A stretch of 44,839 nucleotides of DNA from Elusimicrobiota bacterium (GCA_026388075.1 JAPLKN010000108.1:1-44839), one strand, 5' to 3'; positions 468 through 44,839 are shown, counted from the first letter of the stretch. Notes: a model not told the origin generated them from the sequence alone. A program made the numbers and translations.

Positions 468-495
468 TTTTGTTCCTTTCCTTCATATTTAGCGC

Positions 496-1363: not shown

Positions 1364-1388
1364 TTCTTTCCCTTTGTTATCCGTTTCG

Positions 1389-1443: not shown

Positions 1444-1489
1444 TTTTTGTTATTACTGGCGACTTGCCTCCGGCAATTGTTATCTGCCG

Positions 1490-7620: not shown

Positions 7621-7627
7621 AATATGA

Positions 7628-13242: not shown

Positions 13243-13249
13243 TTCCGCC

Positions 13250-15330: not shown

Positions 15331-16270
15331 ATTTTTCCAGAAATTTCTGCCAGACTTCATCAACTTCTATTTCGGACATATTGCTTTGTTTTACTACAGT
15401 GTGGCTTTCTAAAGGTTGAGGTCCTACTTGATTTGGGTCAGTAGATCCGAACAAGGCTATAACAGGAATACGGAGAGATGCCGCAAGATGCATTGGCCCT
15501 GAATCCACGCCAATAAATAATTTAGCCTTTGAAATAATTCCTGCTAAAGACAATATTCCAAAATCAGTAAATAATCCTACTTTTTCATCGTTTTTTTCTA
15601 TTAATTTACTAAGCTGATCTTTTTCACTCGGAGACCCTATTAAAACAGGACAATATTTTCTATCAACTAATAAATTTATCAGCTTAGTCCACTTTTCTTT
15701 CTGCCAAGACTTTTCTTTTCTTCTTTTACTGGTTCCTGGCGAAATAATTACAAGTCTTGATTTTTCAATTTTATTTTCTTGAATCCATATTTCAACTTTA
15801 TCAATAATATTTTTGGGGATCTTTATCAGATTGACATAGTTTTCTTTTATTTCTTTTAATCCGACTTTAATCCCCAATTTCAAATTATTAGATAAAGAAG
15901 GTACTCCGAATTTCTCAGCTTTGCTTGTTAACAACATTTTTAAGGAAGCAGTTTTGAAACCAATCCTTTCTGGGATATCAGAAAGAAAACTCAATAAAAG
16001 AGATATTGGAGATTCAGAAAAAAGGACTGCCTTAGAATATTTTTCCTTTCTTAGTTGTGATATAACTCCAACTTTTTCAAAAAAACCTTTCTCTTCTTTT
16101 TCTATCAACTGATTAACAAATCCGGTTGCCTCTAAAATAGGCATGAGATCTTTTCTTATATAGCTTGCTAATTTAGTATCCGGCCACTCTCTTCTTGCGG
16201 CTTCAAGAACCGGCAGGCTAAACATCATATCTCCCAATTGATTCATATGAAAAAATATTATTTTATCCAT
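15323..16270 (-). CDS. family 9 glycosyltransferase (heptosyltransferase-like)
   Basis: A 315-aa GT-B enzyme. The N-terminal IIFFHMNQLGDMMFSLPVLE is the GT9 acceptor-side motif with the catalytic Asp in LGDMMF. The C-terminal FIGVDSGPMHLAASLRIPVI and ALFGSTDPNQVGP form the nucleotide-sugar site. It probably adds a heptose or another sugar to the LPS inner core. Its ATG overlaps the stop of the preceding GT9 gene by 13 nt. The C-terminal cysteine cluster of the two other GT9 enzymes is lacking. Exact donor and acceptor cannot be told from sequence. Confidence 0.9.
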   Translation of the reverse strand: MDKIIFFHMNQLGDMMFSLPVLEAARREWPDTKLASYIRKDLMPILEATGFVNQLIEKEEKGFFEKVGVISQLRKEKYSKAVLFSESPISLLLSFLSDIPERIGFKTASLKMLLTSKAEKFGVPSLSNNLKLGIKVGLKEIKENYVNLIKIPKNIIDKVEIWIQENKIEKSRLVIISPGTSKRRKEKSWQKEKWTKLINLLVDRKYCPVLIGSPSEKDQLSKLIEKNDEKVGLFTDFGILSLAGIISKAKLFIGVDSGPMHLAASLRIPVIALFGSTDPNQVGPQPLESHTVVKQSNMSEIEVDEVWQKFLEKYD

Positions 16271-17250
16271 TTTTCTACGGCTTTCAAAACTTCTTCGGGT
16301 TTAATATCTATAAGACAGTCAATATTTTTGCATAGAGGTCTTTTTCTGCATGGAGAACATTGAAAATCATGGCTTAAAATAGAAGCATTTTTTGCTATCG
16401 GAGAAGTTTCTTTAACGTCTGAACCGCCAAATATGGCAACAACAGGAATCCCTAAAGCAGACGCAAGATGTACTGGCCCCGTATCTGGTCCAACAACTAT
16501 GCAACACTTTGATAAAATTGCCGCTAAAGTTTTGAGATCGGTTTTTTGAGATAAATCTACAACATTATTATTATTTGAAAAATCTAAAGGTGCTTTTTTA
16601 TCTCCTAAAATAATAACTTTATAATTCGGATAATTTGAATTTATCATTCTGATTAGTTGTTCAAAATATTTAATAGGCCATTGCTTTGCCTTACCTCGAG
16701 TTAAAGGAGCAATTCCTATAAGTTGATCAGAGTCATTAATTCCTTCTTCTTTTAATATGTCACTGGCCTTTTGTTTAATATTGTCATTTATTAAAATATT
16801 AAATTTTGGTTCAAAATTTCTTGAAGATAAAAAACGAACAACTTCCAGTGATCGAAAAACTGAATTCATAGATCTCTTCTCAGGAAATACTTCTTTATAA
16901 AATAGCCAGCTAAGTTCTTTCATTCCTGGAACGCCCAACTTTTTTTTAGCTCCGGAAAAAAATGGAATAAGGGCAGTCTTTAAGAGCCCCTGTAAATCAA
17001 TGATAAGGTCAAATTTTTCTTGTCTGACTTTTCTAATTATTCTTATAAGTTCTTTCAGTTTAAATCCGCTTTTTCTATTCCATACTATTTTTTCATCAAC
17101 TTGAGGGAAAAGATCTAATATATCAGACCAAATATCAAAAATTAGCCAAAAAATCTTAGCGCTTGGATATAGCTTCCTTAACGCAGTAAGCGTAGGATTT
17201 GAATGAATTATATCTCCCATTGAACTTGTTTTAATAATCAATATTTTCAT
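16258..17250 (-). CDS. family 9 glycosyltransferase (heptosyltransferase-like)
   Basis: A 330-aa GT9 enzyme with ILIIKTSSMGDIIHSNPTL at the N-terminus (catalytic Asp in MGDIIH) and VVGPDTGPVHLASALGIPVV in the donor domain. The C-terminus has a four-cysteine pattern, CSPC...C....C, also seen in the fused GT9 protein next door. In WaaC/WaaF-type proteins this region is structural. The gene lies between the fused GT9 (29-nt gap) and the short GT9 (13-nt overlap), consistent with successive core-sugar additions. Confidence 0.9.
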   Translation of the reverse strand: MKILIIKTSSMGDIIHSNPTLTALRKLYPSAKIFWLIFDIWSDILDLFPQVDEKIVWNRKSGFKLKELIRIIRKVRQEKFDLIIDLQGLLKTALIPFFSGAKKKLGVPGMKELSWLFYKEVFPEKRSMNSVFRSLEVVRFLSSRNFEPKFNILINDNIKQKASDILKEEGINDSDQLIGIAPLTRGKAKQWPIKYFEQLIRMINSNYPNYKVIILGDKKAPLDFSNNNNVVDLSQKTDLKTLAAILSKCCIVVGPDTGPVHLASALGIPVVAIFGGSDVKETSPIAKNASILSHDFQCSPCRKRPLCKNIDCLIDIKPEEVLKAVEKWIK

Positions 17251-17279
17251 ATATTTTAAGAAAAATATTAAGCTATAAA

Positions 17280-18977
17280 TTAATTCTCTGCGCGGACTTT
17301 ATTAAGTTGCTGCTTTATTGCTTGAAAGACTTCTTCTATAGAGATTAATTCCATACACTTTTTATTTTTACAGTTTCGTTTTCTACAAGGCTGACATTCT
17401 ACTTTATGCTGAATTACTATTGTTTTATTTCCAAAAGGGCCTGTTCTTTTTGCATTTGTTGGTCCAAGTATTGCAATTGAAGGCATATTTAAAGCATTAG
17501 CTATATGCATAGGGCCAGCTTCATTTGCCACAAAAATATTTACTTTGCTTAAAAGAGCTGCCAGCTCCTTCAAATTTAGTTGGTCAGTTAAATCTAAAAC
17601 CTTGCCCTTGACATTTGAAATAATCTCTTCATTTAATCCTTTTTCACCTGCGCCGCCCTCTTTTCCTCCAACCATAATAACCTGAGCATTTAATTCATTA
17701 ATTAATCTATTAATAAGCTCGGAATATCTTTCAGGGAACCATCTTCTTGAAATCCAGCCGCCACCGGGATGGATAGCTATAATAGGTTTTTCACTTGTTA
17801 TTTTATTTACGGCAAAAATATTTTGAATTTTATTTTTTACTTCTTCAGGAATAAATATACTAAACTCCAAACCCTTTGATTTACATTTAAGATATTTGGC
17901 CACTTCAAGATTTCGTTCGATACTATGAGCATCATTATTTGTAGATTTTATTTCTTTAGAAAAAAACCAAGATAATTCCCTCATCCCATTAGTTGAGCTT
18001 GAAGCAATTCTAAATTTAGCACCAGCAAATAAAACCATTATGGCCGACCTAGAAAGGCCGTGAAGATCTATACTTAAATCAATGTTTTTAGAACGAAAAT
18101 ATTGATACATTTTAATAAAATAACCTAAAGATATATCTTTCTTTTTCCATACTATTACTTCATCTATATCACTGTTTCCTTCCAATAAAGGTGCGCATCG
18201 CTCGTCAACAAAATAACCTATCCAAGCATGAGGATATTCTTTTCTTATGGCAGCAACCGTAGGCAAAGAAAAAACAATATCTCCTATTCTTGAAGGTTGG
18301 ATAATCAAAATTTTTGGTTTTGGGTGCTTTTTAAGATATTCCGCTAAATTATTTAACCAGTAATATTTGTGAGTAAATTCTGATAATTTATTAAGCTCAT
18401 CTTCAATCAATAGTGTTTTTTCATCAATATTATCATTTTTTTTGACTAAAATTGGATTTCCGTATGCTATTACTGCTTGAGAAAAAAGTTTAGGCCGTTC
18501 ATATTTATCCCAGGCTTTTTCAAATATAACTCTTCTTTTTGCAGCAGAACTTACCGGAATAATTGGCAATCCCGTTTTTTGTGCAAGAAATATTATGCCA
18601 GATTTAACTTTTTTATAAGGACCTTTTCCTCCATCAACTGCAAACGCAGCTGAATGACCTTTTTTTACATTAATTATCATTTCCACTAAAGATCTCTCAG
18701 CGCGTTTAGTAGATGAGCCCCGGACAGGCATATAACCAAACCGTCTTAGAATTCCTTTCTGAATTTCTCCGTCTTTTGAAAAAGATGACATGACAGTGAC
18801 TTTTTGTTTTCTATGGTAGAAGAAAGGAATTAGCTGTTCTCCGTGCCAAAATGCAAAAGCAAATCCTGAATGAGGTGGTCTTTTCCACCCTTCTTGGCTG
18901 TTCACTTCTCTTATACGCAGAGTTCTTCCAATAAAACTTATTAAAATATAACCGATAAAGGATAACAATTTTGTCAT
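17280..18977 (-). CDS. fused DUF374 acyltransferase-like / family 9 glycosyltransferase
   Basis: The 565-aa protein has two domains normally encoded separately. Residues 1 to about 205 are DUF374/COG2121 (lysophospholipid acyltransferase-like): FAFWHGEQ with His45, SSFSKDGE with Asp69, PVRGSSTKRA, and FAVDGGKGPYKKVKSGI. Residues about 222-565 are GT9: ILIIQPSRIGDIVFSLPT, GGGWISRRWFPERY, VANEAGPMHIANALNMPS, and the CQPC...C....C tail. The frame is continuous with no sign of an assembly join. It lies 3 nt after waaA, so the fusion probably acylates and glycosylates the same lipid A-core precursor. Confidence 0.85.
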   Translation of the reverse strand: MTKLLSFIGYILISFIGRTLRIREVNSQEGWKRPPHSGFAFAFWHGEQLIPFFYHRKQKVTVMSSFSKDGEIQKGILRRFGYMPVRGSSTKRAERSLVEMIINVKKGHSAAFAVDGGKGPYKKVKSGIIFLAQKTGLPIIPVSSAAKRRVIFEKAWDKYERPKLFSQAVIAYGNPILVKKNDNIDEKTLLIEDELNKLSEFTHKYYWLNNLAEYLKKHPKPKILIIQPSRIGDIVFSLPTVAAIRKEYPHAWIGYFVDERCAPLLEGNSDIDEVIVWKKKDISLGYFIKMYQYFRSKNIDLSIDLHGLSRSAIMVLFAGAKFRIASSSTNGMRELSWFFSKEIKSTNNDAHSIERNLEVAKYLKCKSKGLEFSIFIPEEVKNKIQNIFAVNKITSEKPIIAIHPGGGWISRRWFPERYSELINRLINELNAQVIMVGGKEGGAGEKGLNEEIISNVKGKVLDLTDQLNLKELAALLSKVNIFVANEAGPMHIANALNMPSIAILGPTNAKRTGPFGNKTIVIQHKVECQPCRKRNCKNKKCMELISIEEVFQAIKQQLNKVRAEN

Positions 18978-18980
18978 ATA

Positions 18981-20228
18981 TTATTTTAGAAGCGGCAGAA
19001 TCACTCCCATAATATTTTTAAGCGCTCCTTTTTGCTCAATAACGCACTCGTTAGCTTTCTTTCCAGATTCAATTAAAAGTCCTTTATCGGATAAAAGCTC
19101 TTCAGCTTTTTTGAAAAGTTCTGTTTCATCTCTCACTACGAATCCGCCACCTTTTTCTATCAATAAATTCGCTTCATTAGAGAAGTTTTCCATATGAGGG
19201 CCAAATAAAATTGCTTTTGAAAAACTTGCTGGCTCTATAGGGTTCTGTCCTCCTTTATTTGCAAGAGATCCTCCGACAAAGACAAGGTCAGCTATAGAAT
19301 AAAACTTCATTAGATCGCCAAAAGTATCTACCAGCAAACAATCAAAATCGTGAAAACTCTTTGAAGAATATAAAGAATAACTTATTCCTTTATATTTCAA
19401 ATATTTTCCTATCTCATTTATCCTGGAAATATACCTTGGAGCCAATACTAGTTTTAAATTATTGAATCTGTTCCTTAATAATTTCCACACATTTACAACT
19501 ATTTTTTCTTCTCCTTGCTTTGTACTTCCTGCGACAAGAATTATATCTGAATTAGAAATATTAACCTCATTTCTTGAAAAAGAAGGTGCTGCCAAATCTC
19601 TATCATACTTAATATTACCTGTTACAAATATCTTCTTTTCATCGCAACCTAAATTTTTAAATCTTTGAGCATCTTCGGAAGATCTTGCACAAATAATATC
19701 AATATTTTCAAAAATCCTTTTAAAGAAAAATTTAACCAGCTTATAAAAATAATACGTCTTTATAGACATCCTTCCATTAATAATTGCAATTTTTGCTTTA
19801 TGCCGTTTTACTTCTAGTATTAGAGCTGGCCACAATTCAGTTTCAACTAAAAATAGAGTCTTTAGTCTAATCTTTCTTAGAACCTTTTTGATAAAAAAAG
19901 AAAAATCAACCGGCACAAAGAAAACAAAATCGGCAATCTTTCTATTTTCAGCATATTCTCTTCCAGAAACAGTCATTGTTGTTAATATAGTAATATTTTC
20001 TTTTAGCTTACTTATCAAAGGCTCAACTGCCCTAACCTCTCCTATTGAAGCACAGTGGAACCATACAACATCCTTTTCAAATATGATTTTTCTAAAATTC
20101 CAAATACCCAGTCTTTCTTCCAATTTATAAAAAACTTCCTTTTTCAAGTTTTTAATATTTTTAATAATAAAATACGCAGATACTGGTACAAAAAAAATAA
20201 TAAAAAGTAAATCATATATAAATATCAT
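18981..20228 (-). CDS. waaA: 3-deoxy-D-manno-octulosonic acid (Kdo) transferase
   Basis: WaaA adds Kdo to lipid IVA and defines a Gram-negative LPS pathway. At 415 aa it has the usual single N-terminal membrane anchor (about residues 2-22), then FHCASIGEVRAVEPLI with the catalytic Glu. FLVETELWPALILE, VAGSTKQGEEKIV, FVGGSLANKGGQNPIEPA and FGPHMENF are family-typical donor and acceptor segments. Family members transfer one to several Kdo units; the number here is unknown. It is the first gene of the LPS block. Confidence 0.95.
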   Translation of the reverse strand: MIFIYDLLFIIFFVPVSAYFIIKNIKNLKKEVFYKLEERLGIWNFRKIIFEKDVVWFHCASIGEVRAVEPLISKLKENITILTTMTVSGREYAENRKIADFVFFVPVDFSFFIKKVLRKIRLKTLFLVETELWPALILEVKRHKAKIAIINGRMSIKTYYFYKLVKFFFKRIFENIDIICARSSEDAQRFKNLGCDEKKIFVTGNIKYDRDLAAPSFSRNEVNISNSDIILVAGSTKQGEEKIVVNVWKLLRNRFNNLKLVLAPRYISRINEIGKYLKYKGISYSLYSSKSFHDFDCLLVDTFGDLMKFYSIADLVFVGGSLANKGGQNPIEPASFSKAILFGPHMENFSNEANLLIEKGGGFVVRDETELFKKAEELLSDKGLLIESGKKANECVIEQKGALKNIMGVILPLLK

Positions 20229-20315: not shown

Positions 20316-20891
20316 TTATCTTTTCCCCTTTTTTATTGGTGTCCTGTAAATAATTCCGCAGGAAGAATAAATGGGATTTAAAACACCTTTTTCCGAAATA
20401 TTTATACCGACTTTCTCGCCGGATACAATTTCAAACATTTTGGGAAAGAGTTTTTTGGAATCCACATTATTACTTTTTGATATTTCGCAGTCTTCGCTCA
20501 GCGCTTCTTCTCTGATTAACCTTTCAATAAAGTTTAAAGACTGCTCAACACCTTCAAGGGCAATTGAATGAGCAATTGATTCTCCGGCCATATCTTTTCG
20601 GTCACGTATATCCTTAAGCTCGTTTTCTATTTTTTCTCCAACAGTTACGAAATAAGCAGTTGCAGCCACCCAATTTTCAGGCTGAGAAACTAGCACTTCT
20701 TTAGGAAATTTTTCTTTTGGAATAGTCTCATATATCGCAGCAGGAGTAATAAATTTCTGGTATCGCTTAGATTCTGTTTCAACTTTTTCTTCTATTTCAG
20801 AATTTATTTCCTGGATTTTAGTTGTTTTTTTGAGCAGTCTTATTATCTCCCTGCTTCTTAAATTTATCTTGAATTTTTTGATCTTTTTCAT
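20316..20891 (-). CDS. stand-alone MetH reactivation-domain-like protein
   Basis: This 191-aa protein resembles the C-terminal activation (AdoMet-binding) domain of B12-dependent methionine synthase, without the catalytic and cobalamin-binding parts. The clues are AATAYFVTVGEKIENELKDI, SIALEGVEQSLNFIERLI, and the end LFPKMFEIVSGEKVGINIS followed by GVLNPIYSSCGIIY. The last two recall the MetH iGv-LTes-am-P-SvsG pattern. In anaerobes such short proteins often serve corrinoid methyltransferases. Here it sits 6 nt after secF with no corrinoid gene beside it, so its partner is elsewhere. The family call is by motif only. Confidence 0.6.
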   Translation of the reverse strand: MKKIKKFKINLRSREIIRLLKKTTKIQEINSEIEEKVETESKRYQKFITPAAIYETIPKEKFPKEVLVSQPENWVAATAYFVTVGEKIENELKDIRDRKDMAGESIAHSIALEGVEQSLNFIERLIREEALSEDCEISKSNNVDSKKLFPKMFEIVSGEKVGINISEKGVLNPIYSSCGIIYRTPIKKGKR

Positions 20892-24746: not shown

Positions 24747-25430
24747 TTATAGCAGCTTCCTTTCGTTAACTATTAATTCAAAATTGCAGCCCAAAAATTT
24801 TGCCGCGCGCCGGCACATAATCATGCGCGACATAAATATCTCAAAATATTCCATTACTTGTGAAATCTTTGTGTCTATGGTCAAATCCAAAGTTATAACT
24901 TTTTTTCTTCCGTCAACTTTTAAAAAAGATCGTTCCGCAGCATAATTTACCCTGTCGTGTATGTCTGCCCCTATCATGCTGGGGTTTCTTACACGAGTTT
25001 TGTGCACATCTGATTTATCGGCTAAAATCAGTGCTGCAGCTATAGGATTTACCGGCTCGCCGATTTCTTCCTCATGGTTTCCTATAGCAGAAATTATCAT
25101 CGCGATTTCATCGGCAGTCGCGCCCATCTGGCTTAGGATTTTCATCGCTATTAATGCTGCCGACTGGCCATGGTCCTGCCTATTAACAACGTTTCCGATA
25201 TCGTGCAAATATCCCGCAATTCCGGCAAGTTCCGGTAAAGGTTCAGGAAAGTTCAAATGAGTAAGGGTATTATGCGCAACCGAAGCAACAAGGCTGACAT
25301 GCCTAAAGCCGTGTTCAGTATAGCCCACGGCGCCAAGATACTCATTAGCTGCCGTGATAAAATTATTTGCCAGCTGATTTTTCTTTACTTTTTCAAGGGT
25401 TATACCAGAATAATTATGAATATCTTTCAT
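24747..25430 (-). CDS. HD-domain phosphohydrolase-like protein (paralogue 1)
   Basis: The 227-aa protein has HD-superfamily metal ligands: His44 (HGFRHVSL), His76-Asp77 (GYLHDIGN), His87, His119 (IGNHEE) and Asp138 (ADKSDVHKTRV). This arrangement suggests a two-metal site. A C-terminal extension (about residues 165-227: LTIDTKISQVMEYFEIF, then MCRRAAKFLGC) is shared with paralogue 2 (26976-27644). No signal peptide or other domain is visible. Substrate is unknown; nucleotides or cyclic dinucleotides are guesses from the superfamily. It lies 11 nt after yajC and 3 nt before GT39. Confidence 0.8.
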   Translation of the reverse strand: MKDIHNYSGITLEKVKKNQLANNFITAANEYLGAVGYTEHGFRHVSLVASVAHNTLTHLNFPEPLPELAGIAGYLHDIGNVVNRQDHGQSAALIAMKILSQMGATADEIAMIISAIGNHEEEIGEPVNPIAAALILADKSDVHKTRVRNPSMIGADIHDRVNYAAERSFLKVDGRKKVITLDLTIDTKISQVMEYFEIFMSRMIMCRRAAKFLGCNFELIVNERKLL

Positions 25431-25842: not shown

Positions 25843-27644
<1,802 letters not shown>

Positions 27645-34091: not shown

Positions 34092-35453
34092 CTATCTGCC
34101 CAGAGGTGCTTCGCCTGGAAGGAATTTTCCCGTCTTAATCAATTCTTCAATTTTATATGTGCCGAGTTTTCTTCCCTTTATAAAACCGTCCCATGCAGCC
34201 TCGGCAAAAATACCCCCCTCCCTGAGATCAAACAGCCATTCATCAGCGTATTTGAGTTTGCCGGCAGGTTTAACGCCTGCATGAATATCCTGCAGCCATT
34301 TACTGTTTATATCTTCATGGGGCCCGACGCTCGGAGCCATTAAAATCGGGATTCCCAGGGCACAATAGAAGGTAAGCTCGCTCGGCTTGCTCCATAAAAC
34401 ATCCGTAGTTCTTAAAATCTTGTTAAATTTGTCAAAATACCTGTATATATCATTGTCATAAATTATATTGATTCCGTTATCAATATATTTTGAAAGTTCA
34501 AGGTAATTAATAAAACTCTTAAATTTAACATACACTTCCGCACTAATGCCTGCCGACAAATTTACTTTGAGTTTTCCTTCTTTAATCTTTTCTTTAACAC
34601 TTTTTAAAATTTCCAAAGCCATGTTAGTCTGAACCCCTGATCCTCCCACTGCAAAAGTTACGCTAAAATATTTATCGGTCCGCTCTTTCGGTATTTCTTT
34701 CCCCAGGTATGCCTTAACAGTATTTTTGTGCACGCTAAAAAAACGCAATAAAGGGTCCAGACGGACTAAACGGCTATATAGATCTTCTTTTAATATTTCA
34801 AGGTTTTCATGGCTTCCGACATTTTCTTTAGGCAGGGGAAAACCGGTCAGAAATATTCTTTCTTCGGGAACACCGTATTGAAGAAGCCTTTTTCTGATAC
34901 GCGTACAAGGTGCTATATATTTGATTTTACTTTTCTTTGGATCTTTTGCAACCCAAACCCTATTGCAGTCCGAATCGCAAATTACCAGATAATTATCCCG
35001 GTGTTTAGTTTCAAGCATATCAACGGCAATTGAAGAGCTGTAAAATGTGCTCAATAAAGGAACGGTATCATTTTTAATCTTGTTTAAAAGTGTTCGTGAA
35101 AGCCCGCTTTTAGCTATAAGTTTTCCCAGATATTTTGAGCTGAAATTAGGTTTTGAAAGGTCTCTGGCCGGATAATAAGGCGGTATCTGCTGAAGTAATT
35201 GGTAAAATAGTTGGAAAAATTTTCCAATCAATATAAGTTCTTCTGCTTTAGAAAAGAAATAATATAAATGCCGGAGTTTTCTCCAAACTTTGTATTCTTT
35301 CGGCTCGCAGAAAGTTTGTGAACCTTCAATTAATATTTCTTCTTTTGCCAAATCCTTTAAAGGATAAGCCGCGCGCATGTGCCCCAAGCCCATCATTGCA
35401 GAAACTACCCAAGCTTTTTTTTCGTTTGTTTTGATCTCGGCTTTCGGCTCCAA
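34092..35453 (-). CDS. GT-B glycosyltransferase-like protein (GT28/MGDG synthase-like)
   Basis: A 453-aa protein. The N-terminal VVSAMMGLGHMRAAYPL recalls the G-x-GH-xxA loop of MurG and MGDG synthases, and the C-terminal KPSELTFYCALGIPILMAP, then GPHEDINSKWLQDIHAG, matches the donor-binding part of that clan. No signal or membrane segment is seen. Family naming is uncertain because the middle is divergent. The start is TTG at 35453, supported by AAGGAG 6 nt upstream, which is formed by the end of the preceding gene (gap 1 nt). A lipid-linked acceptor is likely, given the neighbouring GT21-like gene. Confidence 0.6.
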   Translation of the reverse strand: MEPKAEIKTNEKKAWVVSAMMGLGHMRAAYPLKDLAKEEILIEGSQTFCEPKEYKVWRKLRHLYYFFSKAEELILIGKFFQLFYQLLQQIPPYYPARDLSKPNFSSKYLGKLIAKSGLSRTLLNKIKNDTVPLLSTFYSSSIAVDMLETKHRDNYLVICDSDCNRVWVAKDPKKSKIKYIAPCTRIRKRLLQYGVPEERIFLTGFPLPKENVGSHENLEILKEDLYSRLVRLDPLLRFFSVHKNTVKAYLGKEIPKERTDKYFSVTFAVGGSGVQTNMALEILKSVKEKIKEGKLKVNLSAGISAEVYVKFKSFINYLELSKYIDNGINIIYDNDIYRYFDKFNKILRTTDVLWSKPSELTFYCALGIPILMAPSVGPHEDINSKWLQDIHAGVKPAGKLKYADEWLFDLREGGIFAEAAWDGFIKGRKLGTYKIEELIKTGKFLPGEAPLGR

Positions 35454-35454
35454 A

Positions 35455-36609
35455 CTATTCTCCTTCTATGAATATTTTACTTTCCCTGCCTATCTTAATA
35501 TGCTTGCCTCTCCACACAACTCTTGAGCTAAAAAAAGGAATGAAATAAATAAATAATAAAAGTATGTCTTTTAAAACAACACAAAAAGGTAAAATTAATA
35601 TAACCCAAATATTTTTCCTGTCGTATATATTAACTGCAAAAAAATTCAAATATTCAAGAACAATTTTAAAAAGTACGGCTCCCAATAAAAGAGTCACTCC
35701 TTTGCTTCCCAAAAAGATAATTGAAATAATTGAAAGGCCGATTGGATTAACAAATATTTCCCCCATATACATTAACTTTTCAAGATGGTATCTCATTTTT
35801 GCCCAACGCGATATTCTGGAGCAAAAACTTTTAATAGAAGAGTGGCTGTTAAAATTCGTAATCCAAACATGATTTGTTGAAATATAAATATTATTTTTGT
35901 AGAAAGTATTTCCCATTACGTAATCTTCCGCAAGAAATTGTTTAAAATATTCAAATCCTCCCAAATTAGACAGTGCGGCTTTTTCAACAAGCATTGATTT
36001 CCCTATTATTATAGGTATTCTTAGGTATTCCCAGGCGCCAATAATATTTCCCGAAATAAAGAAGCTTAAGTACGCGTTTTCTATCACGCTGCCAGCCGTT
36101 TTTGAACCCATGCCTCGAACCGGAGAAAACACTATTTTTGAATTTTTAGTAACGTATTCATGAATAAGATTTTTTAAAGTGTCTTTTTCTACCCTTGTAT
36201 TAGAGTCAGATATCCAAAAAACCGATCCCGAAGATTCCTTTTCCATGGAAATAAGCGTTTCCACTTTAGGATTAAGTATTTTCCCTTTTCCCACGGGAAC
36301 AATTTTGATGGACACCTTTGGATATTTTTTCCTCAAGTTTTCTATTATTCTATCGGTTTCATCTTCAATAGAATCGATCCCGAATATTATTTCAAAATTT
36401 GGATAGTCCAAAAGAAAAAATGTTTCTAGATTGTTCCCTAATTCGTCATCGCTGTGTTTAATAGGCTTTAATATGCTGACCTTGGGGAATAATTTAGCAT
36501 TTCCAAAATCCAATCGCCTTGGTTTTCTAAAAAACACGGTCAAAACCGTATAATTCATCCAAATTAAGAAAGAAAATATAATTATGCTCAAACAAAAATA
36601 AAATATCAT
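35455..36609 (-). CDS. ceramide glucosyltransferase-like (GT21/HpnI-like) glycosyltransferase
   Basis: A 384-aa membrane-bound GT-A enzyme. There is an N-terminal membrane segment (residues about 3-22) and two to three at the C-terminus. The D1 region is FGIDSIEDETDRII, D2 is WISDSNTRV, D3 is LAEDYVMG, and the RxxRW motif is RISRWAKMR. This is the ceramide glucosyltransferase family pattern, also shown by hopanoid HpnI. No ceramide or hopanoid synthesis gene is in the window, so the lipid acceptor is unknown. It sits in a run with a GT28-like enzyme and a UPF0104 protein. Confidence 0.85.
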   Translation of the reverse strand: MIFYFCLSIIIFSFLIWMNYTVLTVFFRKPRRLDFGNAKLFPKVSILKPIKHSDDELGNNLETFFLLDYPNFEIIFGIDSIEDETDRIIENLRKKYPKVSIKIVPVGKGKILNPKVETLISMEKESSGSVFWISDSNTRVEKDTLKNLIHEYVTKNSKIVFSPVRGMGSKTAGSVIENAYLSFFISGNIIGAWEYLRIPIIIGKSMLVEKAALSNLGGFEYFKQFLAEDYVMGNTFYKNNIYISTNHVWITNFNSHSSIKSFCSRISRWAKMRYHLEKLMYMGEIFVNPIGLSIISIIFLGSKGVTLLLGAVLFKIVLEYLNFFAVNIYDRKNIWVILILPFCVVLKDILLLFIYFIPFFSSRVVWRGKHIKIGRESKIFIEGE

Positions 36610-36653
36610 ATTAATTTTGAGATTATACTAAATTAAAAAAGACTAGTTTAAAA

Positions 36654-37628
36654 TCATTTGTCATTTGTTTCTAAATTAATTTTTTCTTTTTTCAAAAATA
36701 TTTCTATATAAAAATAATAGAGCCCAACCAAATTCAAAGGCAAAAGCGCCATGAAATGCGACAAAATAGCATAAGATAATGCAATGTTTTTTTCTACACC
36801 GAAAATACTTAAGGCCATCATAGTAAAAAATTCCCAAGTTCCCACAAAACCCGGTGATGAGGGTATCGCAACGCTCAGGACTGAAATACCTATTATAAGA
36901 TAAAGCCCGATTAAGCTTACCTTTATATTAAATGCAATTAAAAGCAAATAAGTAGAAATCGCGCTAACTACAAACCAGTTAAAAATTGTTAAAGGTATTG
37001 CGACTGTCAAAACCTGCCTATCTTTTAAAAACTTTATTGCTGAAGTAATATTTTCAAGCAGTTTGCCGATTTTTTCACTATGTTTTTTGTTAACAAATCT
37101 TCCAATAAAGCTTACAAATATTTTTCTTAATTTTAAAAATAAAAGTATGGCAGAAATTATTACAGCAAATAATATTATAAGCCTCCCTATTTTAAATTGC
37201 GCCGGAATAACAATAAAATATGACCCTATTAAAATCATAAAAACCGGAGGCAAAAGATCAAGTAATCTTTCCAAAAAAACAGTCGCCAATGTATAACTTT
37301 TCGGCAAGCCGCTTTTCTTAGAAAGAAAATATGCCTGGAAAATATCTCCTCCCCTCAAAGGCACAAAAGTATTCAGCATAAGCCCCATTGATGTCGCCTC
37401 AAAAAAGTTTTTCCAAGCAACACTGCGATATTCTTTACCTAATTTTTTCCATCGGTAACTGCGAAGCATTAGAGCGATTAATGAGATAATGAAAACTATT
37501 GCTAACATTTCTATCTTCACAGTTTTTATTATCCGGAATATTTCAGAAAAGTTGGAATTTCTAAACGCAAGCCACAGGAAAAATGCGCTTATCAGAAGGC
37601 CAAAAAAGATGCGAATTAATTTTTTCAT
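36654..37628 (-). CDS. UPF0104 / lysylphosphatidylglycerol synthase-type transmembrane protein
   Basis: The 324-aa protein has about eight hydrophobic helices. WKNFFEATSMGLMLNTFVPL, then RGGDIFQAYFLSK, and SVLSVAIPSSPGFVGTWEFF are the characteristic segments of this family, which resembles the membrane part of MprF (flippase) and includes AglD and HpnL. A role in moving or processing a lipid-linked product is plausible. It is 4 nt from the GT-C gene upstream and 44 nt from the GT21-like gene downstream. Confidence 0.85.
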   Translation of the reverse strand: MKKLIRIFFGLLISAFFLWLAFRNSNFSEIFRIIKTVKIEMLAIVFIISLIALMLRSYRWKKLGKEYRSVAWKNFFEATSMGLMLNTFVPLRGGDIFQAYFLSKKSGLPKSYTLATVFLERLLDLLPPVFMILIGSYFIVIPAQFKIGRLIILFAVIISAILLFLKLRKIFVSFIGRFVNKKHSEKIGKLLENITSAIKFLKDRQVLTVAIPLTIFNWFVVSAISTYLLLIAFNIKVSLIGLYLIIGISVLSVAIPSSPGFVGTWEFFTMMALSIFGVEKNIALSYAILSHFMALLPLNLVGLYYFYIEIFLKKEKINLETNDK

Positions 37629-37632
37629 AATT

Positions 37633-39933
37633 TCATTTTCTCTCTTTTAAAATAAAATTTTCTAATATTTCCCAGCGATTACTTGAATAGAGCTCTTTTT
37701 CTAAAAAGAAATTTTGAGGAATACTATGGGGCTTAGAAGCTTCTTTTTCACTCATAATTTCGTAGAGATAAACATAGTTATTGGGATTTGAGCTATACTG
37801 AGCCCACCATTGAGGCTGTTGTTTTTTAATTGAGTATATTTCTTTATAGGGAACGGAAATATCCGCAATATCTTTATAAATTTCTTTAACATACTTTGAC
37901 CAAAATTCGCAAAACACTGTAAAAGACTTCGCGTCCCAATAAAAAGTTTCATAGTTTTTCAACCTCATAGTTTCGGGAACATTCAGAAGAATATGAGTTA
38001 TTCCATTGGATATTATTTTATCGTAAAGATCTTTGCCATTTTTACATTGGCTTACCCATTCAACCATTGGATTAAAATCACCCGCCCCGCTTGTTATGAA
38101 TTGTCTTTCGCAATAAAGTCCTCTTGTTTCTCCGAGAAACAGAAGTTTTGCTTTTGGATTTAACTTTCTATTTGCATATTCAAGCGTTTGATAATAAGGG
38201 CATGGATAACTGGTCCTTTGTGTTGAAAGATATTCCTTTTTTGACTGCTGACCAATCAAATATCGGAGCGGATCCTGTGTTGCCCATAATAAATAATTCG
38301 AGAATGAGATATTCCCGAGCGTAATAATAATTAACAAAACATAAATTCCATTTTTTGCAAATTTTGCATTTTTGTGATTAGCTATATAATATGCGAAAAT
38401 AACGCTGACGACCGGCAGAGTTGGAATGAAATATCTGAGATAAAACCTGCCCAGCAATACCCAAAAAATAAACGATATAAACAAATAACCAAATAAGATC
38501 TTAATTTCTAAATCTATTTTACGATACATAAACAAAAACACCGCAAACACTAAGAAAACGGGGCCTAGAACTGTTTCTTGCTGCAATTTTCCCATTGTTA
38601 AAGGCCAAAGAAAAAGAAAATAATTTAAAAAATTAAATTCTGGCCGAGGTGGATCTAAGAAAAGAGACTTTGTTAAATGAATTTTTTCATATCCTATTTT
38701 TTCCCAAAAAAAAGGAAAGACAGGATTTCCCGAATAAATAAAATTCCTAAGATACCATGGCAGGCACGTTATCATAGCAATTAAAGAGAAAAAGAAAACC
38801 GACTTAAATATTTTAAAACTATTTTCCTTTGCCATAACTCCCTGAATAATCAATGTTCCGATAAGCGCAAAATAACAAAAAACAATACCGGTATATTTAC
38901 TTCCCATAGAAAATCCGCAGAAAATAGCGCTTATTATAAACCACTGCTTCTTTTTTGAAACAATATAATTCACGAGAGCAAAAACCGCACCGAACTCGAA
39001 AATACCAATCCCAAGCTCGATAGCCGTCTTCCATGAAACAGTCGCAACCTGAGGGATGGAATAAAAGATCAATGCAGAAAAAACCGCAGTCGTACGATTA
39101 AAATATTTTTCCGAGAAAATATAGACCGCATAAACAATCAATAATCCGCAGGAATAATGAATAAGTTTTGCGGTTATTTCATTATTTATCGAAAGCCCCA
39201 TAAGATAAAGCATATTTATATTAAAAGGAAAATAAGAGGCAGGAATAAAATTTGTCGTAAGCATTTTGTGTTCTTTAAGCCAGTGCACTAGAACACCGAG
39301 TTGATAAAATTGTGAATCGTAAAAGAGCTCAGGTGTCAAAGCACCCAACAGGTTAAAAAACGCAATAACACATACTAAAAATAAAGCTAATTTTTCTCTT
39401 AGTAAAAATCTTTTTCTGGTCATCTCAAAATTCTTGTAAATCGCAGAAAAACCAAAAAAAGAAAATATTGCAGTTATAGTCAAAAATACAGTTTTGAAAT
39501 AAAACCCAAAGATCCCAAGAAAAAAACCCAATAATGAAAATATCCCTAAACCTAACACCGTTGAAAACATCAGTTTTTCATTGCCAGAAATATTATATTT
39601 TAGATTATTGTTTCCATTTTCTTTTTCAAAGAATTTAATTCTCAAAATAGCTTCCAGGACAATTGTCCCGGCACCACAAGCCGAAATAAAAATTAATACG
39701 GCCCAAAAAATATTAATGAAGTGTTCTTTGAAGCGAATCAGAAAAGACTTAAAATAAAATAATTCTTCACTTGAGTTGAAAGGCCAAAAAATGCCTACAA
39801 AACCCGCGCTATAGTATTTTGATAAGACAATCCAAGCCCATATACTAAATATTACTCCTATCATCCAAACAGGAATAATGGGATTCAGTTCATTTGGTTC
39901 TATTTTAGTTATATTCGTTTTATTTTGCTTCAT
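37633..39933 (-). CDS. large GT-C type membrane glycosyltransferase
   Basis: A 766-aa protein with roughly 12-13 membrane helices in its first 560 residues and a soluble C-terminal domain (about 560-766). The first loop contains LTPELFYDSQFYQLGVLVHW, with the Asp expected for a polyprenyl-phosphate-sugar dependent GT-C enzyme, and TNFIPASYFPFNINMLYLM. It resembles GT39/ArnT-like enzymes but is longer. The ATG overlaps the stop of the radical SAM gene as ATGA. The acceptor is unknown; the large soluble domain, ending in NRWEILENFIL, may bind it. Confidence 0.7.
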   Translation of the reverse strand: MKQNKTNITKIEPNELNPIIPVWMIGVIFSIWAWIVLSKYYSAGFVGIFWPFNSSEELFYFKSFLIRFKEHFINIFWAVLIFISACGAGTIVLEAILRIKFFEKENGNNNLKYNISGNEKLMFSTVLGLGIFSLLGFFLGIFGFYFKTVFLTITAIFSFFGFSAIYKNFEMTRKRFLLREKLALFLVCVIAFFNLLGALTPELFYDSQFYQLGVLVHWLKEHKMLTTNFIPASYFPFNINMLYLMGLSINNEITAKLIHYSCGLLIVYAVYIFSEKYFNRTTAVFSALIFYSIPQVATVSWKTAIELGIGIFEFGAVFALVNYIVSKKKQWFIISAIFCGFSMGSKYTGIVFCYFALIGTLIIQGVMAKENSFKIFKSVFFFSLIAMITCLPWYLRNFIYSGNPVFPFFWEKIGYEKIHLTKSLFLDPPRPEFNFLNYFLFLWPLTMGKLQQETVLGPVFLVFAVFLFMYRKIDLEIKILFGYLFISFIFWVLLGRFYLRYFIPTLPVVSVIFAYYIANHKNAKFAKNGIYVLLIIITLGNISFSNYLLWATQDPLRYLIGQQSKKEYLSTQRTSYPCPYYQTLEYANRKLNPKAKLLFLGETRGLYCERQFITSGAGDFNPMVEWVSQCKNGKDLYDKIISNGITHILLNVPETMRLKNYETFYWDAKSFTVFCEFWSKYVKEIYKDIADISVPYKEIYSIKKQQPQWWAQYSSNPNNYVYLYEIMSEKEASKPHSIPQNFFLEKELYSSNRWEILENFILKERK

Positions 39934-41372
39934 ATTTTTTTTGAGGCCTTAATCACTTTAGGGATAACAAACAGTTTAACTGCAGATTTTAATTGCCACC
40001 ATTTCTGTCTTATTGACTGTTTTAAGAAAAATAATTTCAAAATCTGCCCTATTCTGAAATAAAACATTCGAAAAGCTTGGGCACTAATTTCTTGAAGCAT
40101 TTGAAAATCTTGTTCAGGCCACCAACTATGAATTACCTGCTTCTCAGGATTTTTAGCATATTTCATCCAGTAATCATCCTTTATAATTCCTTTTTGAAGC
40201 GCCGATGTATAAAAATAACTTATAGGTAGAGGGTTAAAAATACTAAAAGGTGCGTAGTCGAACCCAGCTTCCATGGCAAATGTAATTGTTTGCAGCATTT
40301 CTTTTTTTGATTCGCCAGGAAATCCAATAATGAAATTCCCATAAGATAGTATTCCTGAATTTTTTAAATCCTTAACAAGCTGTTTTACTTTTTCAAGATT
40401 AAGCTTTTTATTTATTCTTTCCTGAAGGTTCTGCGTGCCGGTTTCAATACCAAGCTGTACCATGCGGCATCCAGCATCTTTCATTTTCTTCAATACTTCC
40501 TTTTCAAACTTCATATCGGCCCTGCTTCTACAATGCCATCTTATTTTTATTTTGCGATTTATTATTTCTTCGCAAATTAACCGCACTCTTTCCATATTAT
40601 ACGTAAAATTCTCATCAAAAAACAAAATATCTCTTATCCCAATCCTTAGTATTTCTTCAATTTCATCGACTACATTTCTGGGGGAGCGCATGCGAACTCT
40701 TTGGCCGCGTTCAATATTTGTACAAAAATGACAATTATAAGCGCAGCCTCGCGAAGTCATCATAGTAGTAATAGGATTTGAATAAGTTATAAAACTTTTG
40801 TACTTTGTATACGGAAGAAGCTTTCTATCCGGGAAAGGTAATTTGTCTAAATTCTCAGTTTTTTGAAGTTCCTGTTTCTTAGCTGTATTATTTTTTGAAA
40901 TAACCCCCTCGATTTTCTCAGGACTTTTACATGAAAAGAGAGCCTCGATTAAATTTGTTAAGACTATTTCCCCTTCTCCATAAATGCAATAATCCACATT
41001 CGGATTTGAAATCGTTTCTTGAGGATATATGTAAATGTGCGGACCTCCCGCAATTACTGCTATTTTGGAATTTACTCTCTTGACAATAGCTGCTGTCTTG
41101 AATGAATCCAAAAGATAATCTGTGCAAAAATATATTCCCACTACATCAGGTTTTCTTTTTATTATTTCTTTCTCAATATCTTGGAAATCGTAATTCTCCG
41201 CTGGAGCATCAATTATCTCAACGCAATGTTCTGAATATTTCTTAAGATAACTTGCTACATATAGAATCCCCAAAGGGGGATATAGACCTGATTCTTTATC
41301 CAGTTTCTTGTAAAATCCGGCCGATTCTATTGCATGCGTTTTTTTGGGAGGAAATATGAATAATATTTTCAT
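39930..41372 (-). CDS. B12-binding-domain radical SAM protein
   Basis: A 480-aa protein. The N-terminal half (about 1-150) looks like the B12-binding fold (LYPPLGILYVASYLKK, VIAGGPHIYIYPQE, YCIYGEGE), but I do not see the full DxHxxG cobalamin-ligand motif. The radical SAM core follows, with the 4Fe-4S cysteines at 210, 214 and 217 (TSRGCAYNCHFC) and LFFDENFT and VQLGIETGTQN later. Family members include methyltransferases and HpnJ. It is coupled to the GT-C gene (4-nt overlap). Target could be a sugar or lipid of the same pathway. Confidence 0.88.
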   Translation of the reverse strand: MKILFIFPPKKTHAIESAGFYKKLDKESGLYPPLGILYVASYLKKYSEHCVEIIDAPAENYDFQDIEKEIIKRKPDVVGIYFCTDYLLDSFKTAAIVKRVNSKIAVIAGGPHIYIYPQETISNPNVDYCIYGEGEIVLTNLIEALFSCKSPEKIEGVISKNNTAKKQELQKTENLDKLPFPDRKLLPYTKYKSFITYSNPITTMMTSRGCAYNCHFCTNIERGQRVRMRSPRNVVDEIEEILRIGIRDILFFDENFTYNMERVRLICEEIINRKIKIRWHCRSRADMKFEKEVLKKMKDAGCRMVQLGIETGTQNLQERINKKLNLEKVKQLVKDLKNSGILSYGNFIIGFPGESKKEMLQTITFAMEAGFDYAPFSIFNPLPISYFYTSALQKGIIKDDYWMKYAKNPEKQVIHSWWPEQDFQMLQEISAQAFRMFYFRIGQILKLFFLKQSIRQKWWQLKSAVKLFVIPKVIKASKKI

Positions 41373-41388
41373 TTTTCAAGTTATGTTT

Positions 41389-42504
41389 TTATTTCTGAAC
41401 AAAATTTCTGCAATGTCTGCAGATATCTGGAAATTTGTTGTTATGAATACTATTTATTAGATCATTAAATTCATTCTTCCATATTTTCCTGAAATCGGTA
41501 TATAGTAAATTTCCCAAGCTATTATCTTTCTGGTACTGTCTGGTATTTGCTTCATTTATAGCGCAACATGGCTGAACATGTCCCGTAGCAAGTATAAAAG
41601 GTTCCGTCCAACGAGTGCAGTCTTTAACGCATCGGGTTTGTTTAATATTTTGGTTCCATCCAACAAAAATGTTTAAATCTTTTGCGCATTTTTCAGTTTC
41701 TGTTTTAATTTTTTCAGGCAAAGTAGTTTTCATGTATTCTATTTCTTTAAACTGCAGAATGCTACTAAAATAAATCAACGTTGCTAAGTTATATCCACTA
41801 TTAACTATAGAATGCACCAGCCTTATAAAGTCAGGAAGTTCATTAAAATTGGAGTTGTTTATTATGAAGTGAAAAAAGATCTCTGGAAAAGGCGACTTGT
41901 ATTTCTTTTTTATCTTCATAAGAGTTTTTACATTCCTTACAACTTTATCAAAATCTGTTCCTATTCGGATTGCATTATATGTTTCTTTATTAGCAGCATC
42001 GATAGACATCCAAATTTTATCTACACCTACTTTAATTAGCTCTTCGGCATTTATTTCATTTATTAAATCAAATGTATCAAAAAATTCGACATAGACGGAT
42101 TTTCTTTTTACATAGCTCAATATCTGGATAAAGTCTTTGTTAAGAAAATTAGACCCTATTCCGGTTATTCCAAGCCACTTTAGCTTTGGAAATTGATCAA
42201 TTATTTTCTTGAATTCATCCAAAGACATATCCTTTGGCTGCTCATTCCAATAAGTATGCTCGCACATAGTACATTTAAGGTGGCACTTAGTTGTAATTTC
42301 AACTTCTATTTGTTCTGGGTATGGAGCTAAAATCGGAAATTTTCTGATAATGGGATCCATTAAAGCCAATCCGCTGTCTCTGGTAAATATATGAACCCAA
42401 ATGAAATTATATGCAGATTTTAAACCCCTTGTTTTTAATAGATAAATTAATGCCTTGAGCCTAGACTTAATAAGTCCTAATAGTTTTAAACGCCTAAATG
42501 CCAT
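41389..42504 (-). CDS. SPASM-type radical SAM protein
   Basis: The 371-aa protein has the radical SAM cluster at Cys74, Cys78 and Cys81 (TTKCHLKCTMCEH). A cysteine-rich C-terminal SPASM-like region contains TRCVKDCTRW, HVQPCCAIN, SLGNLLYTDFRKIW and DICRHCRNF. Such proteins carry extra Fe-S clusters and modify peptides, sugars or lipids. Here the neighbours (two B12 radical SAM genes, GT-C, nucleotidyltransferase) favour a sugar or lipid substrate. The ATG shares one base with the stop of the upstream gene (TAATG). An N-terminal basic segment without a clear membrane helix precedes the core. Confidence 0.85.
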   Translation of the reverse strand: MAFRRLKLLGLIKSRLKALIYLLKTRGLKSAYNFIWVHIFTRDSGLALMDPIIRKFPILAPYPEQIEVEITTKCHLKCTMCEHTYWNEQPKDMSLDEFKKIIDQFPKLKWLGITGIGSNFLNKDFIQILSYVKRKSVYVEFFDTFDLINEINAEELIKVGVDKIWMSIDAANKETYNAIRIGTDFDKVVRNVKTLMKIKKKYKSPFPEIFFHFIINNSNFNELPDFIRLVHSIVNSGYNLATLIYFSSILQFKEIEYMKTTLPEKIKTETEKCAKDLNIFVGWNQNIKQTRCVKDCTRWTEPFILATGHVQPCCAINEANTRQYQKDNSLGNLLYTDFRKIWKNEFNDLINSIHNNKFPDICRHCRNFVQK

Positions 42505-43850
42505 TATTTTCTCCTTAAACCCAATAAGGGCATAACAATTCTAAATAATTTCCCGAAAAATTGGGGTGGACTTATGAACATAAGTTTAAGATAGTATAAC
42601 ATAAAACCAAATTTTTTCCCCAGCATAATATCAACCACCATCTTGCTTCTAATTTTTTCAATATCCTTTCTTGAATAATTCTCATTTCCTGCCACAGGGC
42701 AGCTTTCCATATCAAAGTCTTTCCAGGCATAAGTTTCTGGAATAAGTTTTTTTTCTTTGCACCATTCCCACAATTTTGTGCCGGGATAAGGTGTAGTGAT
42801 GCCAATACCTACACTATCGAGACTATTTTTTTTAATAAACTCTCTGGTCTTATTCATGTCTTCCAAAGTTTCAGTAGGATTTCCTATCATGAAAGTCGCA
42901 TAAACCAAAAGGCCTGCTTCTTTAACCATTTTTAACGCTTTTTCAGATTGTTCAACAGTTACTTTTTTGTCTATAATATCAAGCACTCTCTGTGAACCGC
43001 TTTCTATCCCGAAATTTACCTGCCTTAGCCCAGCTTTTTTGGCGAGTTCCAATATTTCAGGATTTACGCTAGTTACTCTGGCATTTGCGGCCCAAATAAT
43101 ATCTATTTTATTTTCTAATATTAATGAACATATTTGTTTTATCCTGTTAGAATTAAAGAAAAGGTCATCGTCCATAAAAAATATGGAATTTATCTGATAA
43201 CCTTTTACAAGTTCTAATATTTCGTTGACTACTCGCTTTGGGGTGTTGTACCTAACCTTTAGACCTCTCCAGCTATTATGGCAAAAAATACAGCTGTATG
43301 GACAGCCGCGACTGGTGATCATGGAGGCAAGTTTTTTCCCAGGAGGAAGGAAATATAGATGTGCGGTAGGAGTATTGCCAGACTTTGCAGAATAGAATTT
43401 CATTTTAAGAAGACTGCGACTCGGAGGAGGTATATCATCAATGTTTTCTATAAGAGGCCCTTTAACTATTCTAGTTTTTGATTTTGAAAAAACTATATCC
43501 AATAGAGCGCGTTCACCTTCACCTACAACAACATAATCAGCATGTCGCAAGGCTTCTTCGCTCATTATGCTAGCGTGGACACCTCCGATAACTGTAACAA
43601 AGCCTTTTTTCTTAGCACCATCAAGAATTTTGTAAGCCTCATCAGCTAAAGGCGTAGTAGCGGTTATCCCAACAAAGTCCGGATTATATTCTTTCAGCAA
43701 CTTATCAACATCATCCCCGGCGAACTGATCAATAATTTTAACGTCTATCTTATTAGCCAAGAGAAATGAAGCCAAATAGCCGAGGTTAAGCGGTTCATTA
43801 TCTGCAAACTCCTTATTTCTGCCGGGATTTATTAGTGCAACTTTTTTCAT
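42504..43850 (-). CDS. B12-binding-domain radical SAM protein
   Basis: The preferred start is ATG 43850 (MKKVALINPGRNKEF), 448 aa; an upstream TTG at 43859 would add three residues. The first 140 residues form a B12-binding-like fold (VIGGVHASIMSEEAL, YVVVGEGERALL). The cluster cysteines are at 183, 187 and 190 (TSRGCPYSCIFC), followed by FFMDDDLFF, VNFGIESGSQRVLDII and GNPTETLEDM. It is related in layout to the protein at 39930-41372 but not closely in sequence. The stop overlaps the SPASM gene start by one base. No obvious Shine-Dalgarno is seen. Confidence 0.88.
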   Translation of the reverse strand: MKKVALINPGRNKEFADNEPLNLGYLASFLLANKIDVKIIDQFAGDDVDKLLKEYNPDFVGITATTPLADEAYKILDGAKKKGFVTVIGGVHASIMSEEALRHADYVVVGEGERALLDIVFSKSKTRIVKGPLIENIDDIPPPSRSLLKMKFYSAKSGNTPTAHLYFLPPGKKLASMITSRGCPYSCIFCHNSWRGLKVRYNTPKRVVNEILELVKGYQINSIFFMDDDLFFNSNRIKQICSLILENKIDIIWAANARVTSVNPEILELAKKAGLRQVNFGIESGSQRVLDIIDKKVTVEQSEKALKMVKEAGLLVYATFMIGNPTETLEDMNKTREFIKKNSLDSVGIGITTPYPGTKLWEWCKEKKLIPETYAWKDFDMESCPVAGNENYSRKDIEKIRSKMVVDIMLGKKFGFMLYYLKLMFISPPQFFGKLFRIVMPLLGLRRK

Positions 43851-43855
43851 AATCT

Positions 43856-44584
43856 TCAAAAATGCGAAAAACCGGAACCAAACGAATCCAGCTCCTTAAA
43901 AGTGTTCACATTTACATATTTGTCGCATATATTAAATGGTTTAATCAATTTACCGTCATCAATTGCGCATTGTATCAAATCCGGCAACTCCTTTTCTCCC
44001 CTTTTACTGTTAATAATCGTTTTTGGGATATAATTCAATATCTCATTTTTAAATACGCAATTTCCCGTGCCCATAATGTTATTGGGAGGATTTTTTGGCT
44101 TTTCAATCAGTTGCACTATTCTTCCGCTTTTATCTTGAATAATGGAATATGTTTTTTTTATCATCTCTTTATCGGAAACATTAATAACGCCGCAAACACC
44201 GAAAAGTTTTTCAGTTTTAAACTTCTCGATCATATCCTTATGTTTCGGGAAAAGCATAAACTCGTCACCTAAAAGCAATAGGAAGTCATCCTTTCCGAGA
44301 AGCTCTTTTCCCCATTCAATCGCATCAACTAAGCCATATCGATCCCATTGAATAACGTATTTGACTGTTTTCCCTTTATAATTATTGCCGTATTTATTGA
44401 TAATATCTTCGGCACGATAACCAACCATAACTATTAATTCGTTTATTTCATCAAGTGCCGAAACACAATCAAAACTATATTCAATAAGAGGTTTACCAAA
44501 AACATCCAACAAGCATTTATTGATCCCTTCCGAAACTTTTCCAAGCCTTTTGCCTCTTCCACCTGCAAGGATTAGCGCTTTCAT
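43856..44584 (-). CDS. sugar nucleotidyltransferase
   Basis: The start is ATG 44584 (MKALILAGGRGKRLG), with AGGAG 5 nt upstream; an earlier in-frame start would overlap the upstream gene. The 242-aa protein has the nucleotide-binding loop LAGGRGKRLG, KCLLDVFGKPLIEYS, LLLGDEFML and IEKPKNPPNNIMGTG of NTP_transferase enzymes. It resembles glucose-1-phosphate thymidylyl- or uridylyltransferases. It lies 1 nt after the epimerase stop. It probably makes an activated sugar for the surface glycan of this operon. Confidence 0.88.
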   Translation of the reverse strand: MKALILAGGRGKRLGKVSEGINKCLLDVFGKPLIEYSFDCVSALDEINELIVMVGYRAEDIINKYGNNYKGKTVKYVIQWDRYGLVDAIEWGKELLGKDDFLLLLGDEFMLFPKHKDMIEKFKTEKLFGVCGVINVSDKEMIKKTYSIIQDKSGRIVQLIEKPKNPPNNIMGTGNCVFKNEILNYIPKTIINSKRGEKELPDLIQCAIDDGKLIKPFNICDKYVNVNTFKELDSFGSGFSHF

Positions 44585-44585
44585 T

Positions 44586-44839
44586 TTAGCTCCTAAAAAG
44601 CCCGTGATTATTTTTAATCCAGGCAATTAGTTTCTCAACACCTTCTCTGGGTTTTATTTTTGATTTCCAGTTTAGATATTTCTCGGCTTTTCTACTATCA
44701 CAAACAAAATATTTTAGATCTCCGAAACGTTCCGGCTCAAAAGCATAATCCACCTTCTTTCCCAAAATATCCTCTATCAACTTTATGCATTCTAACAAAG
44801 ATATAATATTTTCTTCTCCTCCGCCAATATTATATATTC
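44586..44839 (-). CDS. NAD-dependent sugar epimerase/dehydratase, C-terminal part
   Basis: The gene runs off the window edge, so about 83 C-terminal codons are seen. IYNIGGGEENIISLLECIKL, then FGDLKYFVCDSRKAEKYLNW and REGVEKLIAWI fit the C-terminal end of short-chain epimerases, closest in style to CDP-paratose/tyvelose 2-epimerase. The true start is outside the window. It is 1 nt upstream of the nucleotidyltransferase, so the two probably supply one sugar nucleotide. Confidence 0.8.
   Translation of the reverse strand, partial: IYNIGGGEENIISLLECIKLIEDILGKKVDYAFEPERFGDLKYFVCDSRKAEKYLNWKSKIKPREGVEKLIAWIKNNHGLFRS

Follow-up and report, generated by a model that had tools for sequence, protein, structure and literature searches.

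The window analysed here is a complete contig (G000:C108) of 44,839 nucleotides from the genome of an Elusimicrobiota bacterium (2.14 Mb, 95% complete). One end of it carries a minus-strand run of genes, read from 44839 to 34092, that comprises eight complete genes and the 3′ end of an epimerase gene. An earlier note on this sequence proposed that the run is a single nine-gene pathway joining radical SAM/B12 chemistry with glycolipid-type transferases. Comparison with related genomes suggests instead, at a probability of about 0.6 for the explanation taken jointly, that the run is two modules placed side by side: the 3′ end of a surface-glycan locus that varies from lineage to lineage (part A) and a glycolipid-type pair of genes (part B). 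In all five comparable relatives part B is on a different contig from the glycosyltransferase (GT) of GT-C type and the radical SAM genes that belong to part A, and the nine-gene order is not conserved in any relative. A single conserved nine-gene operon is thereby rejected, and the joint pathway as first proposed is not supported.

Organisation of the run

Part A (44839–36654) comprises a nucleotidyltransferase (NTP-transferase), the B12-type radical SAM enzymes B12a and B12b on either side of a SPASM enzyme, the GT-C and a UPF0104 protein; part B (36609–34092) consists of a GT21 enzyme and a DUF6938 protein. Pfam searches confirm the enzyme classes assigned earlier, namely NTP_transferase, B12-binding with Radical_SAM (twice), Radical_SAM with SPASM, PMT_2, LPG_synthase_TM, Glyco_transf_21 and DUF6938. 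The epimerase is incomplete because the contig ends at that point, so that the count of nine genes holds for eight complete ones and a fragment. The 83 residues that are present match CDP-tyvelose 2-epimerase best (1.3e-14, phmmer against the PDB), with galE at 3.5e-9.

The tight packing on one strand described earlier is borne out by the coordinates and junctions. The TAA of the epimerase is followed after 1 nucleotide by the ATG of the NTP-transferase gene, which in turn shares 4 nucleotides with that of B12a; B12a and the SPASM enzyme meet in a TAATG overlap and B12b and the GT-C in an ATGA overlap, while spacings of 16, 4 and 1 nucleotides separate SPASM from B12b, GT-C from UPF0104 and GT21 from DUF6938, respectively. 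The widest gap, 44 nucleotides with a perfect TATAAT inside it, lies between UPF0104 and GT21 and coincides with the module boundary placed by comparison of relatives. Since dense co-directional runs fill the contig, the adjacency of these genes is not improbable by itself; it is the repeated occurrence in relatives of part A genes at one locus, and of the part B pair, that exceeds chance.

Table 1. Genes of the minus-strand run, in 5′ to 3′ order on the minus strand.
Part	Gene product	Coordinates	Strand	Evidence
	Extended-SDR NDP-sugar epimerase, 3′ end only (83 codons and stop)	44586..44839	-	closest to CDP-tyvelose 2-epimerase / GalE
A	Sugar-1-phosphate nucleotidyltransferase (NTP-transferase), 242 residues from ATG at 44584	43856..44584	-	PF00483 2.5e-28
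A	B12-binding radical SAM enzyme B12a	42504..43859	-	PF02310 1.9e-18, PF04055 7.7e-29; CX3CX2C at residue 186
A	Radical SAM/SPASM enzyme	41389..42504	-	PF04055, PF13186; CX3CX2C at residue 74
A	B12-binding radical SAM enzyme B12b	39930..41372	-	PF02310 1.8e-19, PF04055 1.8e-28; CX3CX2C at residue 210
A	GT-C glycosyltransferase, 766 residues (PMT_2)	37633..39933	-	PF13231 6e-11
A	UPF0104 / LPG_synthase_TM membrane protein (flippase-like)	36654..37628	-	PF03706 1.9e-46
B	GT21 family glycosyltransferase (ceramide-glucosyltransferase / HpnI-like)	35455..36609	-	PF13506 9.9e-30
B	DUF6938 protein, 453 residues, GT-B fold, GT28/MGDG-synthase-like	34092..35453	-	PF22053 4.4e-15

A glycan locus between hemW and hrcA

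Homologues of the GT-C were taken with their flanks and annotated by profiles built from the same material. The GT-C is the constant gene of the locus and is found at E ≤ 1e-60 in 71 of the 341 genomes of the phylum. Its surroundings follow a recurring layout, lepB-nfeD-band7-hemW-GT2-B12 radical SAM-[variable genes]-GT-C-(UPF0104)-hrcA-grpE-dnaK-dnaJ, which few single loci display whole because many contigs are short. Across the phylum the GT-C is bordered by hemW-GT2, by hrcA-grpE-dnaK-dnaJ or by both, and thus has a fixed chromosomal address. In the minimal form, seen at locus L155 (lepB-hemW-GT2-GT-C-hrcA-grpE-dnaK-dnaJ), just the GT2 and the GT-C lie between hemW and hrcA. The variable cargo in relatives includes GT2, GT4 and GT9 enzymes, methyltransferases, an asparagine-synthase-like protein and SPASM enzymes, and 10 of 44 loci (the window counted) have a UPF0104 gene close to the GT-C. 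The GT2 adjoining hemW is AglJ/ArnC-like; AglJ and ArnC load sugars onto polyprenyl phosphate. We also observe that the interval from hemW to hrcA-grpE-dnaK-dnaJ, with only two genes at L155 but over ten at L108–L110 (L120 was likewise noted), resembles a phylum-wide insertion hotspot for glycan genes.

Homologues of all six part A genes are present in genome G006, reordered and directly upstream of hrcA, which indicates that the content of part A is better conserved than its order. NTP-transferase homologues occur at the locus in G003, G004 and G006, SPASM homologues at 51–52% in G003, G006 and G007 and at 38% in G004, and B12b homologues at 56–59% in G004, G088, G093 and G095.

Of 40 informative loci, 30 have a B12 radical SAM gene no more than 6 kb from the GT-C. 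These loci come from two sets, one picked partly from radical SAM matches (19/19, the window counted) and one picked by GT-C rank (11/21), and the latter figure is the fairer of the two on account of how the first set was chosen. The same scan gave none in 143 kb of other sequence. When 59 B12 radical SAM proteins of these loci are placed in one tree, B12a belongs to a clade of 8 (100/100 support) and B12b to one of 10 (100/99). Both have as their top solved-structure match AprD4, a radical SAM enzyme that acts on a sugar during apramycin biosynthesis (1.6e-25 and 2.2e-17), but their scores against the NCBIfam AprD4 model (114 and 79 bits) are well below its cut-off of 500. A further frame, at 413–2845 (+) of L112 in genome G092, encodes 810 residues in which a B12a-like radical SAM part is joined to a long extension, and it adjoins a second B12a copy.

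The SPASM enzyme has seven more cysteines from residue 273 onward, the NTP-transferase reaches 144 bits against AglF (cut-off 400), and the GT-C has no relative among solved structures at E ≤ 0.1. The UPF0104 protein scores 101.3 bits against TIGR00374, over the cut-off of 43.2, and is flippase-like by sequence. It carries LPG_synthase_TM alone; the C-terminal counterpart domain, LPG_synthase_C (PF09924), is the only domain of a protein encoded elsewhere in the window (6739–7719, minus strand). The GT-C, the UPF0104 protein, the AglJ/ArnC-like GT2 at the locus in relatives and the ceramide-glucosyltransferase-like GT21 together support the lipid-linked glycan or glycolipid setting that the earlier note had anticipated.

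Part A could instead be devoted to plain decoration of O-antigen or lipopolysaccharide (LPS) core sugars by known chemistry only, a view that overlaps with ours. The CDP-tyvelose 2-epimerase-like end of the run, the LPS-core genes and Wzy_C ligase-like protein encoded in other parts of the window, and cargo that differs between genomes as in O-antigen loci are all consistent with it. Against this, a Pfam scan of about 20 of the proteins encoded at these loci, the window's own locus being cut, found no Wzx or Wzy, and the combination of a GT-C with an AglJ/ArnC-like GT2 suggests a polyprenyl-monophosphate donor route; we regard conventional decoration as less likely than not.

The GT21–DUF6938 pair

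The GT21 of part B scores 103.7 bits against PF13506 (gathering score 21.7) and matches the ceramide glucosyltransferase of the PDB at 1.6e-31. It resembles UGCG-type ceramide glucosyltransferases in family and in the layout of its DSN, EDY and RISRW motifs, and is a putative transferase of sugar to lipid, but differs from them in being paired with DUF6938. The DUF6938 protein (PF22053, 56.4 bits; gathering score 27) has processive diacylglycerol beta-glucosyltransferase as a remote match in a profile search (3.6e-7). Its AlphaFold model, built on ten sequences, has a pLDDT of 76 and GT-B structural matches that include MGD1, with TM-scores of about 0.3–0.55, from which the fold class alone should be taken. 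The fold, the profile match and an N-terminal GxGHxRAA motif liken it to UgtP, the processive diacylglycerol glucosyltransferase, and to MGD1, and hint at kinship with GT28, yet Pfam gives DUF6938 a separate family; identity to the window protein is about 40–60% among its members and about 10–14% for solved structures.

Full-length DUF6938 is present in 7 of the 341 genomes, the other members of the order that have it being G001, G002, G003, G004 and G007. Each of these five has its best GT21 homologue upstream of DUF6938 and in the same orientation, immediately adjacent in four genomes and across a 1.2-kb gap in G002. The gene ahead of GT21 is unrelated in each case (a 659-residue protein with no Pfam match, a metallophosphoesterase, an M42 peptidase, and GGDEF and CBS proteins), and no conserved part B partner other than GT21 was found in these relatives. 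GT21 occurs without full-length DUF6938 in G017, G079 and G103. The neighbours of DUF6938 in Patescibacteria, Woesearchaeota and Clostridiaceae show no consistent partner, with BacA in one instance and a GT1-type transferase in another.

Proposed mechanism and competing explanations

In the two-module explanation, the NTP-transferase and epimerase would supply an NDP-sugar, and the AglJ/ArnC-like GT2 seen at the hemW end in relatives would place a sugar on polyprenyl phosphate. Among the three radical SAM enzymes, at least one may modify the sugar itself or the intermediate linked to lipid; such families are known for C-methylation, deoxygenation or epimerisation. The UPF0104 protein may help the lipid-linked sugar to cross the membrane, and the GT-C would transfer it, outside the membrane, to an LPS-type or other surface acceptor. 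An LPS-type glycan is probably the acceptor, a guess from gene content, since a Kdo transferase, a Wzy_C ligase-like protein and GT9 proteins of heptosyltransferase type are also encoded in the window. For part B, GT21 would begin by glycosylating a membrane lipid, and the DUF6938 protein, which is GT28-like, would add the next sugar; a two-sugar glycolipid is the simplest reading because of the ceramide-glucosyltransferase match and motifs of the former and the GT-B model and distant profile match of the latter.

The proposed part A route resembles the ArnC/ArnT and archaeal AglJ/Dol-P-sugar systems in having an AglJ/ArnC-like GT2 and a GT-C at one locus, with UPF0104 in about a quarter of loci. 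It differs in that the GT-C has no solved relative and that the GT2 and the GT-C often have one to several B12 radical SAM genes between them. A bolder reading, less likely than not, is that the cassette of SPASM enzyme, two B12 enzymes, NTP-transferase, GT-C and UPF0104 protein edits a polyprenyl-linked sugar or its acceptor by radical chemistry new for surface glycans, and that DUF6938 is a new lipid glycosyltransferase family shared with Patescibacteria and an archaeon. Nothing pertinent was found in the literature on Elusimicrobia radical SAM enzymes, B12 radical SAM enzymes with O-antigen, DUF6938, GT21 with diacylglycerol, or AprD4.

Several observations weigh against the explanation by two modules. 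On this contig part A is followed by part B and then by yebC-ruvCAB, with no hrcA, and the hemW flank and GT2, if present, lie off the contig, the 5′ part of the locus being cut by its end. The substrates, products and acceptors proposed here are all putative, and a PF02310 match is no proof of cobalamin binding by B12a and B12b, whose domain may be degenerate. The two parts, co-directional and separated by short gaps, could be co-transcribed and could have a joint function in this lineage. As to part B, the gene before DUF6938 in G252, from another family and on a 3.4-kb contig, is GlgC-like rather than GT21, so that the pairing is an order-level feature; DUF6938 also stands without an adjacent GT21 in Patescibacteria, an archaeon and a Clostridiaceae bin, and therefore needs no such neighbour.

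A joint function would take the form of one lineage-specific pathway, in which all genes contribute to a single radical-modified glycolipid whose anchor is built by part B and decorated by part A. The shared strand, gaps of at most 44 nucleotides throughout and lipid-type transferases in both halves fit such a pathway, but the two parts have unrelated neighbours, as well as separate contigs, in the relatives, and the junction between them is the widest gap, with its TATAAT; we consider it unlikely. Slightly less likely still is that a peptide or metalloenzyme is what the SPASM and B12 radical SAM enzymes act on, their position in a glycan locus being incidental. Maturases of such substrates are the top NCBIfam matches of the SPASM enzyme, but none reaches its cut-off (TIGR04317, 135 bits against 380), no precursor peptide or oxidoreductase was recognised in the run, and in G003, G004, G006, G007 and G092 the SPASM homologues are still found within the glycan locus.

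A likeness to hopanoid side-chain synthesis had been drawn earlier from the co-occurrence of HpnI-, HpnJ- and HpnL-type classes. In the bacteriohopanetetrol cyclitol ether pathway, HpnI, HpnK and HpnJ act successively on bacteriohopanetetrol (PMC12583986). The run shares with that pathway the GT21 and B12-type radical SAM families, but the scores of its proteins are far under the curated cut-offs: 168.1 bits against 310 for GT21 and HpnI (TIGR03472), 192.6 and 128.9 against 577.6 for the B12-type enzymes and HpnJ (TIGR03471), and 41.3 against 195.65 for the UPF0104 protein and HpnL (TIGR03476). BchE comes close to HpnJ in score, and for B12a it is the higher of the two. The absence of a cyclase and HpnH from the window, already noted, extends further: squalene-hopene cyclase (PF13243) was found in none of 40 genomes (this one and 39 relatives), no HpnH (TIGR03470) exceeds the cut-off in 9 genomes, and there is no HpnK in the run. 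A hopanoid or other triterpenoid pathway is rejected on account of the missing cyclase and HpnH and the sub-cut-off scores, the known side-chain pathway being absent without the first two, and a hopanoid-type pathway acting on a polycyclic or other polyol lipid is very improbable, the GT21 and HpnJ-like genes being also unlinked in relatives.

The site between hemW and hrcA-grpE-dnaK thus holds, phylum-wide, a glycan cassette, often with B12-type radical SAM enzymes, and genes of unknown chemistry thereby gain a likely place of action, the sugars of surface glycans. DUF6938, for its part, can be assigned a likely function, that of a GT-B lipid glycosyltransferase with GT21 as its partner. Uncultured bacteria would, if the proposed chemistry is right, carry radical-edited surface sugars that nobody has yet sought.

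Elsewhere in the window, all on the minus strand, an LPS-core-like cluster at 12526–20228 encodes a PIG-L deacetylase, a GT2, the Wzy_C ligase-like protein, GT9 proteins and the Kdo transferase, and includes a single 565-residue frame (17280–18977) in which a DUF374 domain is fused to a GT9 heptosyltransferase domain. Next to it, at 20316–20891, is a 191-residue protein with no Pfam match, whose C-terminal stretch may resemble the MetH reactivation domain. Two similar HD-domain proteins (24747–25430 and 26976–27644) flank a tRNA-guanine transglycosylase gene.

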